Below, piece by piece: positions 3,038-29,470 of a stretch of DNA of 39,577 nt. The position numbers and the translations under genes were made by a program. Source of the DNA: Spirochaetia bacterium. GTDB lineage: Bacteria > Spirochaetota > Spirochaetia > Treponematales > Breznakiellaceae. Where the stretch lies: the NCBI GenBank assembly GCA_025997755.1, contig BNVA01000003.1, positions 1 through 39,577 of the forward strand, written 5' to 3'. Below the pieces are notes generated by a model, which was not told the DNA's origin, made no database searches, and saw only the letters and a program-made list of their open reading frames with translations. Numbering within the stretch: the first letter of the stretch is position 1; each line of letters opens with the position of its first letter.

Positions 3038-4183
3038 TTATTGAGATTGGAGCAGAGCGGCTTCGATTTTTCGCTGTTCGAGAGCCGCCCGTGCATCTTC
3101 CAGATTCTTTTCCGCTAACGCTACATTGTTGTCGGCAGTTTTGATTCTGCCGCCTTGCCCGCCTAGAGCCTTTTTTATTAATTCAATTTCTGCTGCTTTT
3201 GCCTTTGATGCTTCATTTCCAACTATTGGTTCACCAAATTTATTCCTTACAACATTTATATTTGCTTTTTCATACTCGCCCTGAGCAATAAGTAGATCTT
3301 CTTCCAGCGTTTTTTGACGTGTCCGTTCCTGCAGAGCCTTCTGTTTTGCAGCTTCAAGCGCCCTTTCGTATTCGCGTAACTCGTTTTCTGCCTTCTCCGC
3401 AGCAGTCTTTGCTTTCGCAAGCAACTGCGCCTTAGTTGGCGGCGGCGGTGCCGGGTTGAATTTTTGGGGGTCGGCGCCTTTAACCGGCTCTTTTTTAATG
3501 GCTTCCACCACTTCTTTATTGACAACCTCTTTAAGCTCTATCTGCATATTTCCATCAGCATCAGGGTCGTAAAGAGGTATAATAATCTGTGTTCCACCGG
3601 GCCAGTCCCTAAAAGAAGGTGATAAGCCTAAAGTGTCGCCATTCAAATATTTAACCACTTCCTTCTTATAAAATTCATTAAAGCGATCAAAATTTTTACG
3701 GTTTATTGCATTGTACACGGTAACATAGATTGCTATTTCGTCTGCAACATTTTGAGGATAGCGGTAAGCGGTTTCAATATAGCCGGAAAGAATGTACCGC
3801 AGATTAGATATTGTATCTACACCGGCTTGTTTTCCTAACATTATAATATCGGCAGAAAGTCCATCTGCATCTGTTGTGCTGATGTCATATATTTCTTCAA
3901 GTGAGTAACGCGCAGTATCGCCCACAATAATATTTTGCTTTCGATTTCCCTTATTGTCAAAAAGCGCATTTGCAAGCGCTTTTCCTATAGCCCTTATTTG
4001 TTCAACCGAAGTTCCGTTGTTGACAACATTAGGGTTGTTTTCAAATTCAACTTTCCCTTGGGACTTACCAAGCTCTGTTTTATCTATATCAATGGCGCTT
4101 AAAGATATAGTCCAAAAACTCAAGAAAACAGCGGATAACACCAATATCTTAGGGACGCCCCTTGTAAATAGTGTTTTAATCAT
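3038..4183 (-). CDS. P83/100-family exported antigen, shortened C-terminus
   Basis: 381 residues. Residues 1-30 form a signal peptide (basic start, long hydrophobic run, SLSA region). The segment KSQGKVEFENNP followed by EQIRAIGKALANAL and the TDADGLSADIIMLGK block match the conserved N-terminal domain of the spirochaete P83/100 family, known as a serological antigen of Borrelia and Treponema with unsettled function. A proline stretch (PAPPPPTK, about residue 245) leads into a long Ala/Glu/Lys-rich coiled coil that runs to the end. Family members I remember are nearer 480-700 residues, so the C-terminal globular domain appears to be missing. The gene starts 10 bases after the flaB stop with only a weak ribosome binding site, so it is probably read from the flagellin promoter. 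Confidence 0.7.
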   Translation of the reverse strand: MIKTLFTRGVPKILVLSAVFLSFWTISLSAIDIDKTELGKSQGKVEFENNPNVVNNGTSVEQIRAIGKALANALFDNKGNRKQNIIVGDTARYSLEEIYDISTTDADGLSADIIMLGKQAGVDTISNLRYILSGYIETAYRYPQNVADEIAIYVTVYNAINRKNFDRFNEFYKKEVVKYLNGDTLGLSPSFRDWPGGTQIIIPLYDPDADGNMQIELKEVVNKEVVEAIKKEPVKGADPQKFNPAPPPPTKAQLLAKAKTAAEKAENELREYERALEAAKQKALQERTRQKTLEEDLLIAQGEYEKANINVVRNKFGEPIVGNEASKAKAAEIELIKKALGGQGGRIKTADNNVALAEKNLEDARAALEQRKIEAALLQSQ

Positions 4184-6622: not shown

Positions 6623-7039
6623 ATGCAAATAAATCAGATTTCGGTGTTTTTAGAGAACAGTGCGGGACGGCTTGCGGAAGTAACAAAAACTATGTCCGAT
6701 GCCGGTATAAATCTAAGGGCAATAAGCATTGCCGACACAGCCGATTTCGGCATATTGCGCATGATCGTTAATAAACAAGACGAAGCGCAAAATGCCCTGA
6801 TTAAAGCCGGCTTTACAATCAGGCTTACCAAAGTGCTGGTTGTCGAAATAGACGACAAGCCCGGTTCGCTTGCCGTCCTAATGGAACTTTTTCAAAAATC
6901 TAATGTTAACGTCGAGTATCTTTACAGCTCGCTTCAAAACAACAACGGCAAAGCAGTTTGTATATTTAAACTAAACGACTACGATAAGGGACTAAAAATC
7001 GTCAAGGAAGCGGAGCTTACCGTTGTGGAGCAATTTTGA
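6623..7039 (+). CDS. Tandem ACT-domain protein
   Basis: 138 residues forming two ACT domains. The first (residues 1-68) begins QISVFLENSAGRLAEVTKTM and DAGINLRAISIADT; the second (about 70-138) begins VLVVEIDDKPGSLAVLMELF and VNVEYLYSS. The G-R/S-L-A turn after the first strand is the usual small-ligand site. Proteins of this type bind amino acids and are typically encoded beside phenylacetate-CoA ligases, 38 bases upstream here. There is no catalytic or DNA-binding domain, so it probably acts as a ligand sensor for a partner. The ATG follows GAGGTGG. The stop TGA overlaps the next start by one base (TGATG), coupling translation to glgA. Confidence 0.85.
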   Translation: MQINQISVFLENSAGRLAEVTKTMSDAGINLRAISIADTADFGILRMIVNKQDEAQNALIKAGFTIRLTKVLVVEIDDKPGSLAVLMELFQKSNVNVEYLYSSLQNNNGKAVCIFKLNDYDKGLKIVKEAELTVVEQF

Positions 7040-8619
7040 TGAAAATACTATTTGCTTCAAGTGAAGCCGTTCCTTTTGCAAAAACCGGAGGACTTGCCGA
7101 TGCGGTTTCTTCGCTGTCATTGGCTCTGGCAAAACTTGGAAACGAAGTAAAAATCGTCATACCTCGTTATTACAGCATAGACAAGAATGATCTAACTCCT
7201 TTAGAAGATCCAATGGGTGTGCCTATGGGCTGCGGAATTGAAGAATGGTGCGGCGTTTTGCATACGAAAATGCCCGGATCGCCTGCAAAAAATCCGGTTA
7301 TCGTGTATTTTATCGATCATGAAATCTTTTTTGGGCGCGACGGCATCTACGGATCGCATTTTGAGCCGGATTTTATCGACAATCCACGCCGGTTTACCTT
7401 TTTTTCACGCTCAGTTTTTCAACTTTGCAGGAGAATTTCGTGGTTTCCCGATGTAATTCATGCCAATGACTGGCCTACCGCACCGGTTCCCGTGTTTTTG
7501 AAGTACGGTCAGCGGCAAGCTGAGTTTGAAAAGACAATTTCTGTGCTTACAATCCACAATTTGGGGTATCAGGGCGTCTACGATAAGAATAATTTTGAAT
7601 ATACCGGACTTGGCTGGAATGTGTTTTACGAAGGCGGGTTTGAGGATTGGGGGATGATGAATATGCTCAAAGCGGGTATCTACTCCGCAGACAAACTCAA
7701 TACCGTCTCACAGACTTACTGCGAAGAAACTAAAATTCAAGAGCATGGCTTTAGACTTGACGGGCCTCTGCGTTATCGCTCCGCCGATTACCGGGGGATT
7801 CTGAATGGCATAGACGAGCATATATGGAACCCTAAAACCGACAAACTCATCCCTAAAACCTATTCCGCAGAGGATATGAGCGGCAAGGCGGAGGCAAAGA
7901 AGGCGCTGCAAAAAGAATTCGGCTTGCCGGTGGAAAGCGATGTGCCTGTAATCGGCATGATTGGAAGACTTGTCGGGCAGAAGGGTATAGGCGAGCTTTT
8001 CGGTCCCTGTCACGGTTCGGCGTATTCGATATGCCGCGACATGAACTTACAGATTGTGTTAATAGGAACCGGAGAGGCTTGGTGCGAAGGGGAGATCAAC
8101 GGTCTTAGCTCAAGACTTCCGAATTTCAAGGCAAAAATAGGCTATAGCGAAAAATTGAGTCATCTTGTTGAGGCGGGCAGCGATTTTTTCCTTATGCCGT
8201 CCGGATACGAGCCTTGCGGTTTAAATCAGATGTATTCGTTAGTTTACGGTACCCTGCCCATAGTGCGGCGCACCGGCGGGCTTGTGGATACCGTGCAAAA
8301 TTACGATGAAAAAACAGGCGAAGGCACGGGTTTTATGTTTGACGATTTAACGCCGCAGGCTATATACAATACCGTAGGCTGGGCAGTCCATGCTTACTTC
8401 AACCAACGCGCCAACATTGAGGCTATGCGGCTTCGCGGCATGAAGCACAATTTTTCGTGGGCAGTATCCGCAAAAAAATATATCGAAATGTACACAGATG
8501 CGGGTGTAAAGCCGCAAGTTTCGGGAGCGACGGGACTCGAACCCGCGATCTCCGGCGTGACAGGCCAGCGCGATAAACCAGCTTCGCTACGCCCCCTTAA
8601 AAAAAAGTCTAGCAAATAA
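7039..8619 (+). CDS. glgA: Glycogen (starch) synthase, with C-terminal read-through across an antisense tRNA gene
   Basis: 526 residues in the open frame. The N-terminus MKILFASSEAVPFAKTGGLA holds the K-T-G-G ADP-glucose binding motif of GT5 synthases. WFPDVIHANDWPTAPVPVFL, LTIHNLGYQG, IGMIGRLVGQKG, and MPSGYEPCGLNQMYSL with RRTGGLVDTV complete the two Rossmann domains and the catalytic Glu region. The enzyme adds ADP-glucose to growing alpha-1,4-glucan. The recognisable domain ends near residue 490 (KYIEMYTDAG), the normal length. The remaining roughly 33 codons read through a complete tRNA-Asp gene on the other strand and its promoter -10, giving an unrelated GATGLEPAISG-type tail. Either the native stop was lost or the gene acquired this tail recently. 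It starts by one-base overlap with the ACT gene. Confidence 0.9.
   Translation: MKILFASSEAVPFAKTGGLADAVSSLSLALAKLGNEVKIVIPRYYSIDKNDLTPLEDPMGVPMGCGIEEWCGVLHTKMPGSPAKNPVIVYFIDHEIFFGRDGIYGSHFEPDFIDNPRRFTFFSRSVFQLCRRISWFPDVIHANDWPTAPVPVFLKYGQRQAEFEKTISVLTIHNLGYQGVYDKNNFEYTGLGWNVFYEGGFEDWGMMNMLKAGIYSADKLNTVSQTYCEETKIQEHGFRLDGPLRYRSADYRGILNGIDEHIWNPKTDKLIPKTYSAEDMSGKAEAKKALQKEFGLPVESDVPVIGMIGRLVGQKGIGELFGPCHGSAYSICRDMNLQIVLIGTGEAWCEGEINGLSSRLPNFKAKIGYSEKLSHLVEAGSDFFLMPSGYEPCGLNQMYSLVYGTLPIVRRTGGLVDTVQNYDEKTGEGTGFMFDDLTPQAIYNTVGWAVHAYFNQRANIEAMRLRGMKHNFSWAVSAKKYIEMYTDAGVKPQVSGATGLEPAISGVTGQRDKPASLRPLKKKSSK
8522..8596 (-). tRNA. tRNA-Asp (anticodon GUC)
   Basis: Read on the minus strand, a 75-base cloverleaf folds fully: acceptor GGGGGCG with CGCTCCC (one G-U), D stem GCGA/TCGC, anticodon stem CTGGC/GCCGG around loop CTGTCAC, five-base variable loop, T arm GCGGG-TTCGAGT-CCCGT, and discriminator G as expected for aspartate. 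The anticodon GTC corresponds to + strand bases 8559-8561. CCA is not encoded. The whole gene lies antisense within the open frame of glgA. Confidence 0.95.
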
Positions 8620-19015: not shown

Positions 19016-20047
19016 GTGAATATTCTCTTTCACTCTAACCATATAACGGAACGCGGAACCGAGATCGCTCTTTTTGATTATGCGCTTGGAAATGTAAATA
19101 TCTTAAAAAACAATTCGTTTATAGCGTCTCCAAAAAGCGGTTTGAGCAATGTTGATGTTTTAGAAAAATTTAAACAAAACTTTAAAGTATGCCTGTACGA
19201 AACACACGAAGAACTTATAGATTTTATAAAAGCAAACGGTATTTCATTGATATACAAGATCGTACACGGCGGCTGTAAAGAAGGCGATATAGCAGAAGGC
19301 ATCCCCCATTTTATACACTGTGTTTTTTCTACAAACAACCGTTACGGTACATTTTACTGCGGAATATCCGAGTATTTAAATTTTTGGTTCAGAACAAAAT
19401 ATCCTTCTCTTCCGCATATAGTAAAAAAATTTTCAGGCAGTACATGTTCATTACACAGCGTTCTTAACATTCCAAAAGACGCTTTAGTGTACGGCGGATA
19501 CGGCGGCGAAAACAACTTTAGTATTGTATTTGCACAAGCGGCTGTAATAGAAACCGCAGCCAAAAATCCTAACATACATTTTATTTTTTTGAACTTTAAG
19601 CCCTTTACGAGGAATGGCGAAGATTTTCCTAACATTCATTTTTTACCAAAGAATGTGGATCGCGATTACAAAGAAAAATTTATAAATACCTGCGATGCAA
19701 TGATACACGCGCGAAAAGACGGCGAAATATTCAGTCTTGCAATAGCGGAGTTCTCTGTAAAAAATAAACCTGTAATTACATTTGCGCCTAACATAAAAGA
19801 TAATTTTTTTATATGCGTAAAGCAGTTTATAAAATTTATTATAAAAATGACGCCGACATACTACAAAGGGCATCTTTTTTATCTTGGCAATAAAGCAATA
19901 AAATACTCAACCTCAAAAAAGTTAATAGACATATTTGTAAATTTTAAATCAAAATATTTAAAAGATATAAACTACGACTGCTATTCGGAAGAATACAGCG
20001 AAGAAAAAGTAATGCGGATATTCGGCGAAATTATAAAAGACAAATAA
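19016..20047 (+). CDS. Glycosyltransferase-like protein
   Basis: 343 residues, GTG start. The beginning MNILFHSNHITERGTEIALF followed by DYA resembles a GT4-like group whose members start with HSN-x-x-x-ERGTE. A second Rossmann-like half is visible: ALVYGGYGGENNFSIVFAQA, NIHFIFLNFKPF, FINTCDAMIHARKDGEIFSL and AIAEFSVKNKPVITF, where the E-x-F-x-L-A-x-AEF segment corresponds to the donor-binding E-x7-E of GT-B enzymes. No membrane segment is evident. The gene follows ftsK by 14 bases. The sequence is richer in Lys, Asn, Phe and A/T than its neighbours, which could mean transfer. The acceptor and sugar are unknown. It converges on rnpB with three bases between them. Confidence 0.65.
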   Translation: MNILFHSNHITERGTEIALFDYALGNVNILKNNSFIASPKSGLSNVDVLEKFKQNFKVCLYETHEELIDFIKANGISLIYKIVHGGCKEGDIAEGIPHFIHCVFSTNNRYGTFYCGISEYLNFWFRTKYPSLPHIVKKFSGSTCSLHSVLNIPKDALVYGGYGGENNFSIVFAQAAVIETAAKNPNIHFIFLNFKPFTRNGEDFPNIHFLPKNVDRDYKEKFINTCDAMIHARKDGEIFSLAIAEFSVKNKPVITFAPNIKDNFFICVKQFIKFIIKMTPTYYKGHLFYLGNKAIKYSTSKKLIDIFVNFKSKYLKDINYDCYSEEYSEEKVMRIFGEIIKDK

Positions 20048-20050
20048 AAA

Positions 20051-20420
20051 GCGATGAACCATAAGCCGGATTCTGTATTTAAAACATAATGTTTTAAAGC
20101 CGTCTGCCATCTATCTTGCGCTGTTTTTACAAACAGCGTCTTTGCAGCCTACCCGCGGCTATAATCGGGCGTTAGCCGCTGTTTGGCTTTGCTCCTGATG
20201 AGGCTTGCCTTGCGTATCCGTTACCGGAAACGAGGCGGGCTTTTACCCCGCCATTTCACCCTTACCAAACCGCAAGCGGCCCGGCGGTATACTTTCTGTT
20301 GCGCTTTCTGTCCCGCCCTTACGAACGGTCCCGGGCGTTACCCGGCATCATTGCCCTGCGGAGCCCGGACTTTCCTCAAACCGGTGAAAAACAACGGTTC
20401 GCGGCGACGTGGTTCATCGC
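20051..20420 (-). ncRNA. rnpB: RNase P RNA (bacterial class A)
   Basis: Read on the minus strand, the 5' end GCGATGAACC pairs with the 3' end GGTTCATCGC (P1). The universally conserved GAGGAAAGTCCGGGCTCC is at 20377-20360, and the 3' ACAGAATCCGGCTTAT block is at 20076-20061. Between them are GTAAGGGTGAAA, a GGTAA region and the GTAGGC segment expected of class A. Length is about 370 bases. It begins 15 bases after the zinc-ribbon gene, so it may be co-transcribed or use a promoter inside that gene. Short open frames across this interval are artefacts. Confidence 0.95.
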
Positions 20421-26141: not shown

Positions 26142-26179
26142 TAAGTAGGAATATTTTTTATTTTAAGAAGGAGCAATTT

Positions 26180-28397
26180 ATGAGTATTAAAAAATGCGGG
26201 GGGGGGGGGGGTTATAGCGCCCTCTAAAATTAGCAAAAAGCAGCGTATAGCGTGCTTTATAGCCGGAATAGCCCTGTTCACAGGTCTATCACTGGTATTC
26301 GTAACCTGTAGAGCCGAAACGCCAAATTATGCGGAAGAAAATAAAGATTTTAGAATAATAGACACCATACCATCAGATATAGTAGTTACATTCAAAAACG
26401 GCTGGGAAACTGAGCTTTACAACGGCGAAATGAATGACGATCCTTACACAAAATATAATATTCACTTAGGCGTAACACCTCAAACAATGAGAGCCGTTTA
26501 CGATAAGACTGAAAAATTAGAGTACGACGAAGCTGTAAAAAAGTATAACAAACTCTTAGCGGACTGGAATGATTATGAGGCACGCCGAAATAGGGGCGAT
26601 GAGGATTTAGCAGACTACCTGCCCGAAGAAGACCCGATTGAGCCAGTAGCGCCTACGGCAACCCTGCCCTACTTCCCCGGCTCTTCCGCAATTGATGAAC
26701 ACGGTGTAGAGCACAAATACGTCGGTAAACAGCCCGAGTGGGATTATCACACATTCATAGGGTGGGAAATCTATCCCGCATACCCGGATTCTGCAGGCGC
26801 TTATGAACTAACCCTTAACGGCGCGATAACCGCGGATGTTACGGCGGTGGCAAAGTGGGCGGATGCTCCCGCCCGTCCTTTTAAAGAAATCACGTTTCAA
26901 AAGGCGGACGGCTCCGGTGTTTTTGAAAAGCGTTTTGCAATTCCCACAGAATTCGCTTACGAACCTGATAACCTTCTTGCAGGGACAGATAGTGTGCCAT
27001 GGGATGATGACGATGACCCCAATACCCCTGACATCTATATAACTTACGATGTAGGTAATGCAAAAATGGACAACGGAAATCCTATAATCTTAAAATATGA
27101 GGACTTTCAAATTCGGGAAAACTATGTGCGGGGCGGAACTGGAACTATAACTCAGAACGAACCGCGTGTACCTGTTTTTACGCGTGATCATTACAATGTC
27201 TCCGATACTCCTTGGAAAGACTCAAAAGGAGCTGCCATCAATCCGTTGGGAACGAATTTTGAAACCGACGCATTTGTATACCAGCAATGGTCGCCTAAAC
27301 AATACATAATTACGTTTAACGGCAACGGAATAGGCGATACAATCAGTAGTTTAAATATAACGCTTACAGATCTTGACGCCCCTACCGTTGCCCAAAGCGG
27401 TTTGGTAGGAACGGATAAACGGCTTCCAACTTATGCGGGAACTGCAACGGTTGATAATTTAACATATTACACCTTTAGCCACTGGATGGATAACCCTGAA
27501 GGCGGCAATACGTACACAAACAAAACACAAATAACCGGCGATACCACGCTTTATGCCAAATGGGTCGTTGCAGGCGGCGCTGAATATGTATTCCCTGTTA
27601 CAGGCGCAGTCCAAACATTTATGGTTCCCACAGCAGGTACCTACACAATTGAAGCATGGGGGGCGCAAGGCGGCGGCGAATCAGATAACACGGGGTTCTA
27701 CGATGTCGGTGGTTTTGGCGGCTATTCTATGGGGACTATTAGCCTAACAGGAGGAACGCTTTATGTCTATGTCGGTTCTAAAGGCGCTGCCGGAGCAGCA
27801 GGCAATAATGGCGGTAATGGCGGTAATGGCGGATACAATGGCGGCGGTAATGGCGGTAATGGTGTCAACTATAAGGGGGGAAATGGCGCAGGCGGCGGCG
27901 GCGGCGCTTCCGATGTCCGTGTAGTAGGCGGCGATTGGGATAATCCAGACGGTCTAAGATCCCGCATCATTGTTGCCGGCGGCGGCGGCAGTGTCGGTCC
28001 CGGTTCCGCTCGCGGCGGCGCAGGCGGCGGAATAAATGGGGGGGCTGCCAACAACTCTCTAGCAGGCGCGACTCAGACTGACGGCAACGCTTTCGGCATA
28101 GGCGGTAATGGCGGCAATGGTAGGACCAGCGCTAATGACAATGGTGTAGAAGGACGCGGCGCAGGCGGCGGCGGTTACTATGGCGGCAGAGGCGGCGAAA
28201 CTAATAATTACTTTGTAACAAATTCTTCAGGCTCCGGCGGCTCAGGCTACGTCAAGGGTATAACATCCGGCAATTCAACCATGATGTCCACTGCACCGGA
28301 ATTTACGGGTTTAGAATTTACAGGCGGCGTAACAACAGCCGGACTACACACAGGCAACGGCAAGGTGGTTATAACCTTCATACCGCAGCAGAACTAA
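26180..28397 (+). CDS. Poly-G-controlled surface lipoprotein (phase-OFF): Listeria-Bacteroides repeats plus ALK-type glycine-rich domain
   Basis: The ATG at 26180 follows AAGGAG at ideal spacing. It reads MSIKKC into a run of 14 G, then meets TAA at 26225. In the frame one base over, the sequence is open from the G run to 28397 and starts with a lipoprotein signal (KKQRIACFIAGIALFTGLSL, then VFVTC). Thirteen G, or sixteen, would join start and body into a protein of about 738 residues with lipid-anchored Cys43. The body has three units ending in AKW, QQW and AKW; the last (TYYTFSHWMD, DTTLYAKW) is a clear Listeria-Bacteroides repeat. It is followed from about residue 470 by F-x-V-x-x-AGTYTIEAWGAQGG and a long Gly/Asn-rich region, as in the ALK glycine-rich domain. 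No alternative ATG, GTG or TTG lies between the tract and 26430. Function is probably adhesion or surface display. Confidence 0.78.
26198..26211 (+). repeat. Poly-G tract of 14 (simple sequence contingency locus)
   Basis: Fourteen consecutive G begin at codon 7 of the lipoprotein gene. It is much the longest homopolymer I saw in the window. Slippage by one base would switch the reading frame. The exact count depends on sequencing accuracy. Confidence 0.85.
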
Positions 28398-28560: not shown

Positions 28561-28651
28561 TTAAAATATTTCCGGTAAAAAAATCTCCTGCCATACAAGC
28601 GTTATGCGGAATTTCGCCGTACATAGGGTACTAAATCTATATGGAGGCATT

Positions 28652-29470
28652 ATGGAAAAAGAATTAGTATCCCTGCTAAACGATTATGTTTTTAAACTTG
28701 TCTTTGGCGATCAGAAAAATATCAAAAATTTGGAAAGCCTTTTAAAAACTATTCTCGATCTGCCGCACGAGGAATACGCGGGGCTTACCATCGTAGACCC
28801 TTTTTTAAAGCGGTTATGGAAAAACGACAAAATGGGCATCTTGGATGTAAAAGTACTCACCAGGAGCAAAAAGGTGATCAATGTCGAGCTTCAGATTGAG
28901 TTTCTTAGCGTTATGCGAAAGCGTGTGGTGTATTATCTGGCAAAATTGATAGCCGAACAACTAAAAAGCGGTTTTGATCACGGCAAAATACAGGAAACCA
29001 TCTGCATTGTAATCTGCAACCACTCACTGGGATTTGCTTCACCGGACTATTTAAACACTTGGACAATGAACAACAAAAAAGACGGCGAACAATTTACAGA
29101 TTTGATGAAAATAGTTACAATTGAATTAAGCAAACTACCGAAAGAAGATGACGGTAAGGCGGTCTGGCCGTTTTTGCAGTGCTTTAAATGTAAGCGCAAG
29201 GAGGACTTTGATATGTTGGCAAAGAAACACCCCGAAGTAAAAGAAATCGCAGTTCAGGTAAAAAAGCTCTCGTTTTTTGAGCGGCACCGCATGATAGCGG
29301 AGAAAAAAGCGATGTGGCGTGCCGACCTCCGCGCTATGATGACCGACGCCCGCGAAAGCGGACTTTCCGCAGGCAGGGAAGAAGGTCTTTCCAAGGGCGC
29401 TGCCCAGCGCGAGCAGTTACGACAGGAAATCGAACGGCTTAGGGAAGAAAATGCCCGATTGCGATCGTAA
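28652..29470 (+). CDS. Rpn-family PD-(D/E)XK nuclease / putative transposase
   Basis: 272 residues. The start ATG follows GGAGG. The N-terminus LLNDYVFKLVFGDQKNIKNL with SLLKTILDL is the typical opening of the PDDEXK_2 (Rpn, recombination-promoting nuclease) family. The nuclease core is GILDVKVLTRSKKVINVELQ, with Asp and the E-x-Q pair in place of E-x-K. RVVYYLAKLIAEQLKSG follows. The C-terminus is a charged coiled coil (EQLRQEIERLREENARLRS) after a Gly-Ala stretch. Rpn proteins have been linked to RecA-independent recombination and more recently to phage defence. This copy looks intact. It is isolated between a dispersed repeat and the rimP operon, consistent with a mobile or rapidly turned-over gene. 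Confidence 0.85.
   Translation: MEKELVSLLNDYVFKLVFGDQKNIKNLESLLKTILDLPHEEYAGLTIVDPFLKRLWKNDKMGILDVKVLTRSKKVINVELQIEFLSVMRKRVVYYLAKLIAEQLKSGFDHGKIQETICIVICNHSLGFASPDYLNTWTMNNKKDGEQFTDLMKIVTIELSKLPKEDDGKAVWPFLQCFKCKRKEDFDMLAKKHPEVKEIAVQVKKLSFFERHRMIAEKKAMWRADLRAMMTDARESGLSAGREEGLSKGAAQREQLRQEIERLREENARLRS

Follow-up and report, generated by a model that had tools for sequence, protein, structure and literature searches.

How a lipoprotein can be made from a gene whose start codon and signal peptide lie in different reading frames is the question raised by the locus described here, found in a 39,577-base stretch of DNA from a Spirochaetia bacterium (contig BNVA01000003.1; the whole stretch is hereafter called the window). 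Translational phase variation of this gene is the reading that best fits the sequence, and we put its probability at about 0.8. A poly-G tract separates the start codon from the signal peptide, and its length would set whether the lipoprotein gets translated: replication slippage at the tract would shift the frame, so that some cells would produce the whole lipoprotein and others a short peptide only. The elements of the locus are as follows.

26168..26182, plus strand: ribosome-binding site AAGGAG and leader ATG (26180), from direct reading; GGAG also precedes the leaders of six homologues
26180..26227, plus strand: short frame as assembled, encoding a 15-residue peptide that ends at TAA 26225, from direct reading
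26198..26211, plus strand: 14-G tract, from direct reading, run counts, a Markov estimate and homologue comparison
26214..26309, plus strand: predicted signal peptide in the body frame, with a hydrophobic core and a candidate lipidation Cys (VFVTC), from the sequence and its likeness to the relative P0002
26310..27461, plus strand: predicted exported N-terminal region, from homology to P0002, P0003 and the tract-bearing loci
27462..27560, plus strand: one weak Listeria-Bacteroides repeat, PF09479 below its curated cut-off
27630..28382, plus strand: ALK/LTK-type glycine-rich domain, from PF12810 and a fold match
26430..28397, plus strand: the ORF as gene callers would list it, 655 aa without the signal peptide, from ORF calling

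The start codon with its AAGGAG, the 14 G, the early stop and the long open frame given in the preliminary description of this DNA are all confirmed by direct reading of the window. AAGGAG ends six bases upstream of ATG 26180, six codons (MSIKKC) lead from there to the tract, and TAA 26225 closes this frame, whereas the body frame is open from just past TGA 26181 to the stop ending at 28397 and has 727 residues after the tract. Within 26184-26432, the sole ATG, GTG or TTG of the body frame is ATG 26430, which comes after the signal peptide and is preceded by no evident ribosome site. Synthesis of the signal peptide therefore needs a start at 26180 and passage through the tract, or else a non-standard start, which supports the earlier proposal that tract length decides whether the signal peptide is made. 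The gene thus carries a long mononucleotide tract in its 5' part (G14 at codon 7), with an early stop in the other register and a full product that, among ATG, GTG and TTG starts, is reached through the tract only. Since the tract lies inside the coding sequence, it does not occupy the promoter position of the treponemal tpr genes that had been cited as a precedent, and the closest parallel is with the frame switching of Campylobacter genes. Around the lipoprotein gene, scans for promoters and terminators gave nothing above chance level.

In the window, the tract stands alone as the only G/C run of at least 8 bases. Seven overlapping 8-mer G/C matches were counted, all of them from the 14-G run, against 0.62 expected from shuffles, and a first-order Markov model gives an expectation of 0.0001 for runs of at least 14. 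Shorter runs fall off steeply (19 of length 5, three of length 6, one of length 7), with none between 7 and 14. As to its surroundings, a PD-(D/E)XK family transposase (PF12784) lies directly downstream of the lipoprotein gene at 28604-29470. The window also encodes a Borrelia P83/100-type protein (PF05262, which takes its name from spirochaetes) at 3038-4183 and, both on the minus strand, a class A RNase P RNA (20047-20420) and a tRNA-Asp (8522-8596).

The product is probably an exported surface protein with a lipid anchor, its surface location being predicted from the sequence. A lipoprotein signal peptide ending in VFVTC had been described; the hydrophobic core followed by VFVTC is indeed seen, although VFVTC fits the canonical lipobox motif loosely, and the corresponding endings in relatives are SSC or FSC. 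The C-terminal domain is of the ALK/LTK type by both Pfam and fold, as had been proposed: PF12810 matches the 26430-28397 ORF with 101.3 bits against a cut-off of 24.5, and the first 19 PDB matches in a fold search of the structure model are all ALK/LTK extracellular domains (E 6e-9 to 1e-5), with modest TM scores by target of 0.31-0.48 and rmsd values of 7.5-11.3. The model was built from 17 sequences and has a mean pLDDT of 50 overall, with block means of 49-89 over the C-terminal domain; no sequence relative of the ORF was found in the PDB at E 0.001. The protein thus shares its C-terminal domain with the ALK/LTK glycine-rich domain proteins, but, unlike the ALK/LTK receptors, it is bacterial, predicted to be exported and devoid of a kinase domain in a Pfam scan. 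The plural Listeria-Bacteroides repeats of the preliminary description, on the other hand, reduce to a single PF09479 stretch of 24.1 bits, under the curated cut-off of 27; two relatives, P0004 and P0005, are annotated with this repeat.

The relative that bears most directly on the frame question is P0002 (AGMMS50212_03810, 749 aa, from Spirochaetia bacterium AGMMS50212), in which MSIEKC, four glycines, the signal peptide and the body follow one another unbroken in a single frame. It therefore has the same leader as the window gene and a glycine run at the tract site, but in frame, unlike the window. This glycine run, known from the protein sequence, would correspond to a G tract at the DNA level. 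P0002 can be aligned to the body of the window protein over its whole length. The leader is the best conserved part (57 of the first 60 residues after the tract are identical), identity in the eleven subsequent 60-residue bins lies between 33/56 and 54/60, and the final 7 residues all match. A second AGMMS50212 hypothetical protein, P0003, is of the same family and source, but its leader differs and it has no run. When residues 1-60 of P0002 served as query, P0002 alone was matched among proteins of 0.55-1.75 times its length, so that the leader tract of the window is common to one relative only. At the DNA level, the leader (26214-26520) was matched in 3 of 194 genomes of the order, by 5 short stretches of 24-44 bases. 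We accordingly rejected the idea of a widely shared leader cassette.

Where the window belongs was addressed with its DnaG. A DnaG search matched 349 of 390 genomes of the order at 1e-60 and, among the matches listed, the nearest to the window were eight of the 11 members of the genus of genome G001 (G277, G001, G225, G219, G185, G202, G307 and G366), at 56-59% identity, which places the window beside that genus. As for the other three members, G364 is among the 390 genomes and appears in neither listed DnaG set, and G391 and G392 lie outside the 390. Going by their names, we take these relatives to be termite gut spirochaetes.

A contig scan of genomes returned three loci in Spirochaetaceae bacterium Nm470_bin15 and one Paenibacillus locus, and by way of locus L003, genome G001 and its genus were searched (11 genomes, 4 of them matching P0002 at 1e-15). 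Six homologues have the layout of a ribosome site (GGAG), a leader with an SSC or FSC lipobox, about 100 residues, a run of 13-14 C in a proline-rich linker, and then the rest of the body. Counting L006/L012, on the basis of their shared sequence, as one gene on two contigs, this linker tract is present at one shared position in 8 of the 10 homologues that cover the linker, in four genomes (L006/L012, L007, L019, L023, L024, L145, L146 and L147; it is absent in L005 and L018). Of the other two, L007 has an insert in its leader, and the leader of L023 lies outside the covered sequence. In L003, the leader region of a lipoprotein homologue is interrupted at 7380-7542 by 163 bases bounded by inverted ends of 19 nt (95% complementary); this element looks like a small, MITE-like insertion.

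All eight linker tracts are out of frame as assembled, with C14 in seven and C13 in the eighth, and both halves of these genes are nevertheless kept as protein. Upstream of the tract, Nei-Gojobori dN/dS (own script) spans 0.21-0.84 among 15 pairs, 4 of which were too saturated to give a value, and downstream it spans 0.17-0.71 among 28 pairs with one such case, in a comparison where many distant pairs are near saturation and the higher values come from the closest paralogues in G225. That the out-of-frame window gene is a decaying pseudogene is hard to credit in view of these values below 1 on both sides of the tract in the homologues, and of its own 727 open residues, alignable to P0002 throughout and preceded by a conserved leader.

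The homologues also bear on the possibility that the interruption arises from an assembly or base-calling error in the homopolymer, the true gene encoding a lipoprotein without interruption, with a run of constant length. Such runs are weak points of metagenome assemblies, some of the relatives' tracts lie near contig ends, and the exact tract length in the window is uncertain. A tract at the same site, its two flanks intact, in each of three genomes, and another in the single-contig genome G017, make an error improbable as the explanation.

In order to see which registers occur in nature at the linker site, products were collected with a profile of the N-terminal domain, admitting only those of about half to twice the query length. 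Of the 17 products obtained, ten run through the proline run into one and the same OFF frame, P0127 ends in the other OFF frame as read against the L145 flank, and P0135 stays in the body frame, the ON register, through about 59 of its final 71 residues before diverging; P0125 breaks off at the run, where its contig ends, and four further products terminate upstream of it. Seven of the 17 had apparently been counted already (P0121 as L145, P0122 as L019, P0123 as L146, P0124 as L147, P0125 as L012, P0133 as L024 and P0137 as L023). Except in products that match a fetched locus, where the DNA can be read, their proline runs are presumed to be C tracts. Because the length limit excluded full-length ON products, the ratio of ON to OFF says nothing about the population. 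Natural copies in the ON register are nonetheless available for both sites, namely P0002 for the leader and P0135 for the linker, both known as proteins only.

These ON copies weigh against a further explanation, in which RNA polymerase or the ribosome slips on G14 or C14 and yields a constant fraction of full-length protein. Such a rescue would account for conserved halves around linker tracts that are out of frame at length 14 in seven of eight cases (the eighth being C13), but it sits poorly with the in-frame P0002 and P0135 and with some other tracts in the same genomes that join open frames in register, and we regard it as unlikely. The case for frame switching in the window gene is built, in turn, on fixed tract sites in one family, conservation on both sides of the tract and the occurrence of ON and OFF registers in nature. 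The earlier proposal of phase variation is in this way strengthened by an in-frame relative and by equivalent tracts in homologues, while variation of tract length within the population is predicted. What the genes display is the design of a frame switch; its activity in cells is likewise predicted.

A tract between a start codon and a signal peptide had also been taken as strong evidence in itself, and this argument is weakened by the abundance of tracts in the lineage. Of 390 genomes of the order, 241 contain a 12-G pattern, with overlapping counts from 0 to 1066 (the maximum in G001) and from 108 to 1066 in the eight genomes nearest the window. For a census, 20 contigs or contig starts were sampled from each of G001, G225, G364 and G277, within the genus, and G063, outside it (890 kb). 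These five tract-rich relatives contain 78 G/C runs of at least 11 bases, at densities of 21 per Mb (G225) to 142 per Mb (G001). Run lengths form a second peak after a gap: 26 runs of 7, eight of 8, three of 9-12, eight of 13, 43 of 14, 18 of 15 and eight longer. The peak is at 14 in the five taken together but at 15 in G063, and A/T runs in the same 890 kb have no second peak. The description of the lipoprotein as switched off is therefore an overstatement: 14 is the commonest assembled length whatever the place (43 of the 78 long runs), in and out of genes, so that an OFF register in an assembly is not to be read as off in cells. The 14 G of the window probably reflect no more than the most frequent length among the cells of a mixed population.

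With regard to location, 6 of the 78 runs lay within 60 bases of a sequence end and were dropped. Of the remaining 72, 23 fall in ORFs of at least 100 aa by our own simple rule, compared with 79-88% of random positions, and the other 49 belong to no called ORF; of these, 13 are flanked by 3' ends on both sides, a setting in which a switch would not be expected. The simple rule can miscall genes that are split by a tract, and hence a frame-tolerant recount with random sites was made; it kept the result that tracts avoid genes. A 150-codon open frame adjoins 22 of the 72 tracts as against 3036 of 4000 random sites (76%), and a 100-codon frame 39 of 72 as against 3416 of 4000. Tracts thus characterise the lineage and are for the most part excluded from genes, and since they also arise without acting as switches, a tract alone is weak evidence for one. 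Among 30 tract-adjacent pieces, 16 had Pfam matches, to surface-type domains and also to pseudouridine synthase, radical SAM, MazG, glycosyltransferase, PD-(D/E)XK and C39 peptidase domains.

In two genomes, G013 and G024, a protein with a Peptidase C39 domain has a 13-base tract on its 5' side (L032:1501 and L033:1501), possibly a second conserved tract-bearing family; an in-frame 12-base tract (L022:2505-2516, G032) separates two parts of what appears, from its translation, to be a sugar PTS transporter; and in G001, a C14 (L074:6583-6596) and a G13 (6664-6676) on opposite strands, 67 bases apart, lie between two convergent ORFs. In G017, a single contig of 4,059,867 bases, run lengths decay in the ordinary way over 400 kb with one exception, a C16 (L090:10977-10992) in the gene of a lipoprotein that has five stretches of cadherin-like domain; it follows the lipobox Cys by 24 residues and leaves the gene out of frame in the assembly.

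Loss of mismatch repair, as far as mutS is concerned, was rejected as the cause of many tracts, given that the gene is present equally often in tract-free genomes. In 56 genomes hand-picked from the table of 12-G counts, mutS1 scored above cut-off in 27 of 28 tract-rich genomes (the exception, G225, has a fragment) and in 26 of 28 tract-free ones; for recA, taken as a control, any match was found in 25 of 28 and 28 of 28, respectively.

The census also bears on the view that the tract is passive, in which the replication machinery lengthens any G/C run above about 9 until it reaches equilibrium near 14 and the gene merely caught one, switching being real but a tolerated side effect rather than a selected function. 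Runs of exactly 14 in and out of genes, with only three runs of 9-12, are what such growth would give, and so is the placement of tracts mostly away from long open frames. Against it, the linker tract recurs at one position in 8 of 10 genes in four genomes even though tracts are rarer in genes, a recurrence that may in part reflect descent by duplication. We consider the passive view possible, if rather doubtful; being compatible with the mechanism of frame switching, it is weighed here with odds that do not add to 1.

Frame switching itself would probably amount to a random on/off switch in an unusually tract-rich lineage, and might be useful, for example, in attachment or on meeting phages or hosts. 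More broadly, and tentatively, at somewhat short of even odds, we propose that genomes of this lineage carry tens to several hundred G/C tracts each, driven by replication to about 14 bases with mutS present, that some tracts have been recruited as lipoprotein frame switches, and that within one family the switch has changed place between leader and linker. Were this true, the richest symbionts would, to our knowledge, exceed any known phase-variable bacterium in slippage loci.

Poly-G frame switching is textbook knowledge in a few mucosal pathogens. Our findings would extend it to an uncultured and presumably harmless spirochaete lineage and to bacterial proteins that share the fold by which the animal ALK receptor binds its ligands, with the switch at two different sites of one family among relatives. 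The peak at 14 and the gap at 9-12 offer a testable case of tract-length equilibrium, and the lineage a case of switch recruitment from a neutral supply of tracts. Among the literature matches listed, none was recognised, by title and start of abstract, on tracts in termite or other symbiotic spirochaetes, and none concerned phase variation of lipoproteins with ALK-type glycine-rich domains. As far as those matches go, novelty lies in the gene family, in the change of switch site and most of all in the tract density and the 14-base peak.

Already known are poly-G/C frame switching and variable poly-G in Treponema pallidum, mostly studied in promoters (PMC7864442). T. pallidum resembles the window in being a spirochaete with poly-G and surface proteins; most of its tested tracts are reported to vary in length, those of tprE, G, J and L act in the promoter, on transcription, a table note allows for tracts inside ORFs too, and tracts were selected at 8 nt or more, a bar below the lengths in the window lineage (PMC7864442). 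Campylobacter likewise has G/C tracts inside genes whose length sets the reading frame, with 5-81 phase-variable genes per strain, tract lengths that peak at 9-10 and, in one data set, 82% of poly-G tracts in ORFs (PMC6321876). Unlike Campylobacter, the five sampled relatives of the window have a peak at 14 (15 in G063) and, by our own simple rule, 23 of 72 tracts in ORFs.
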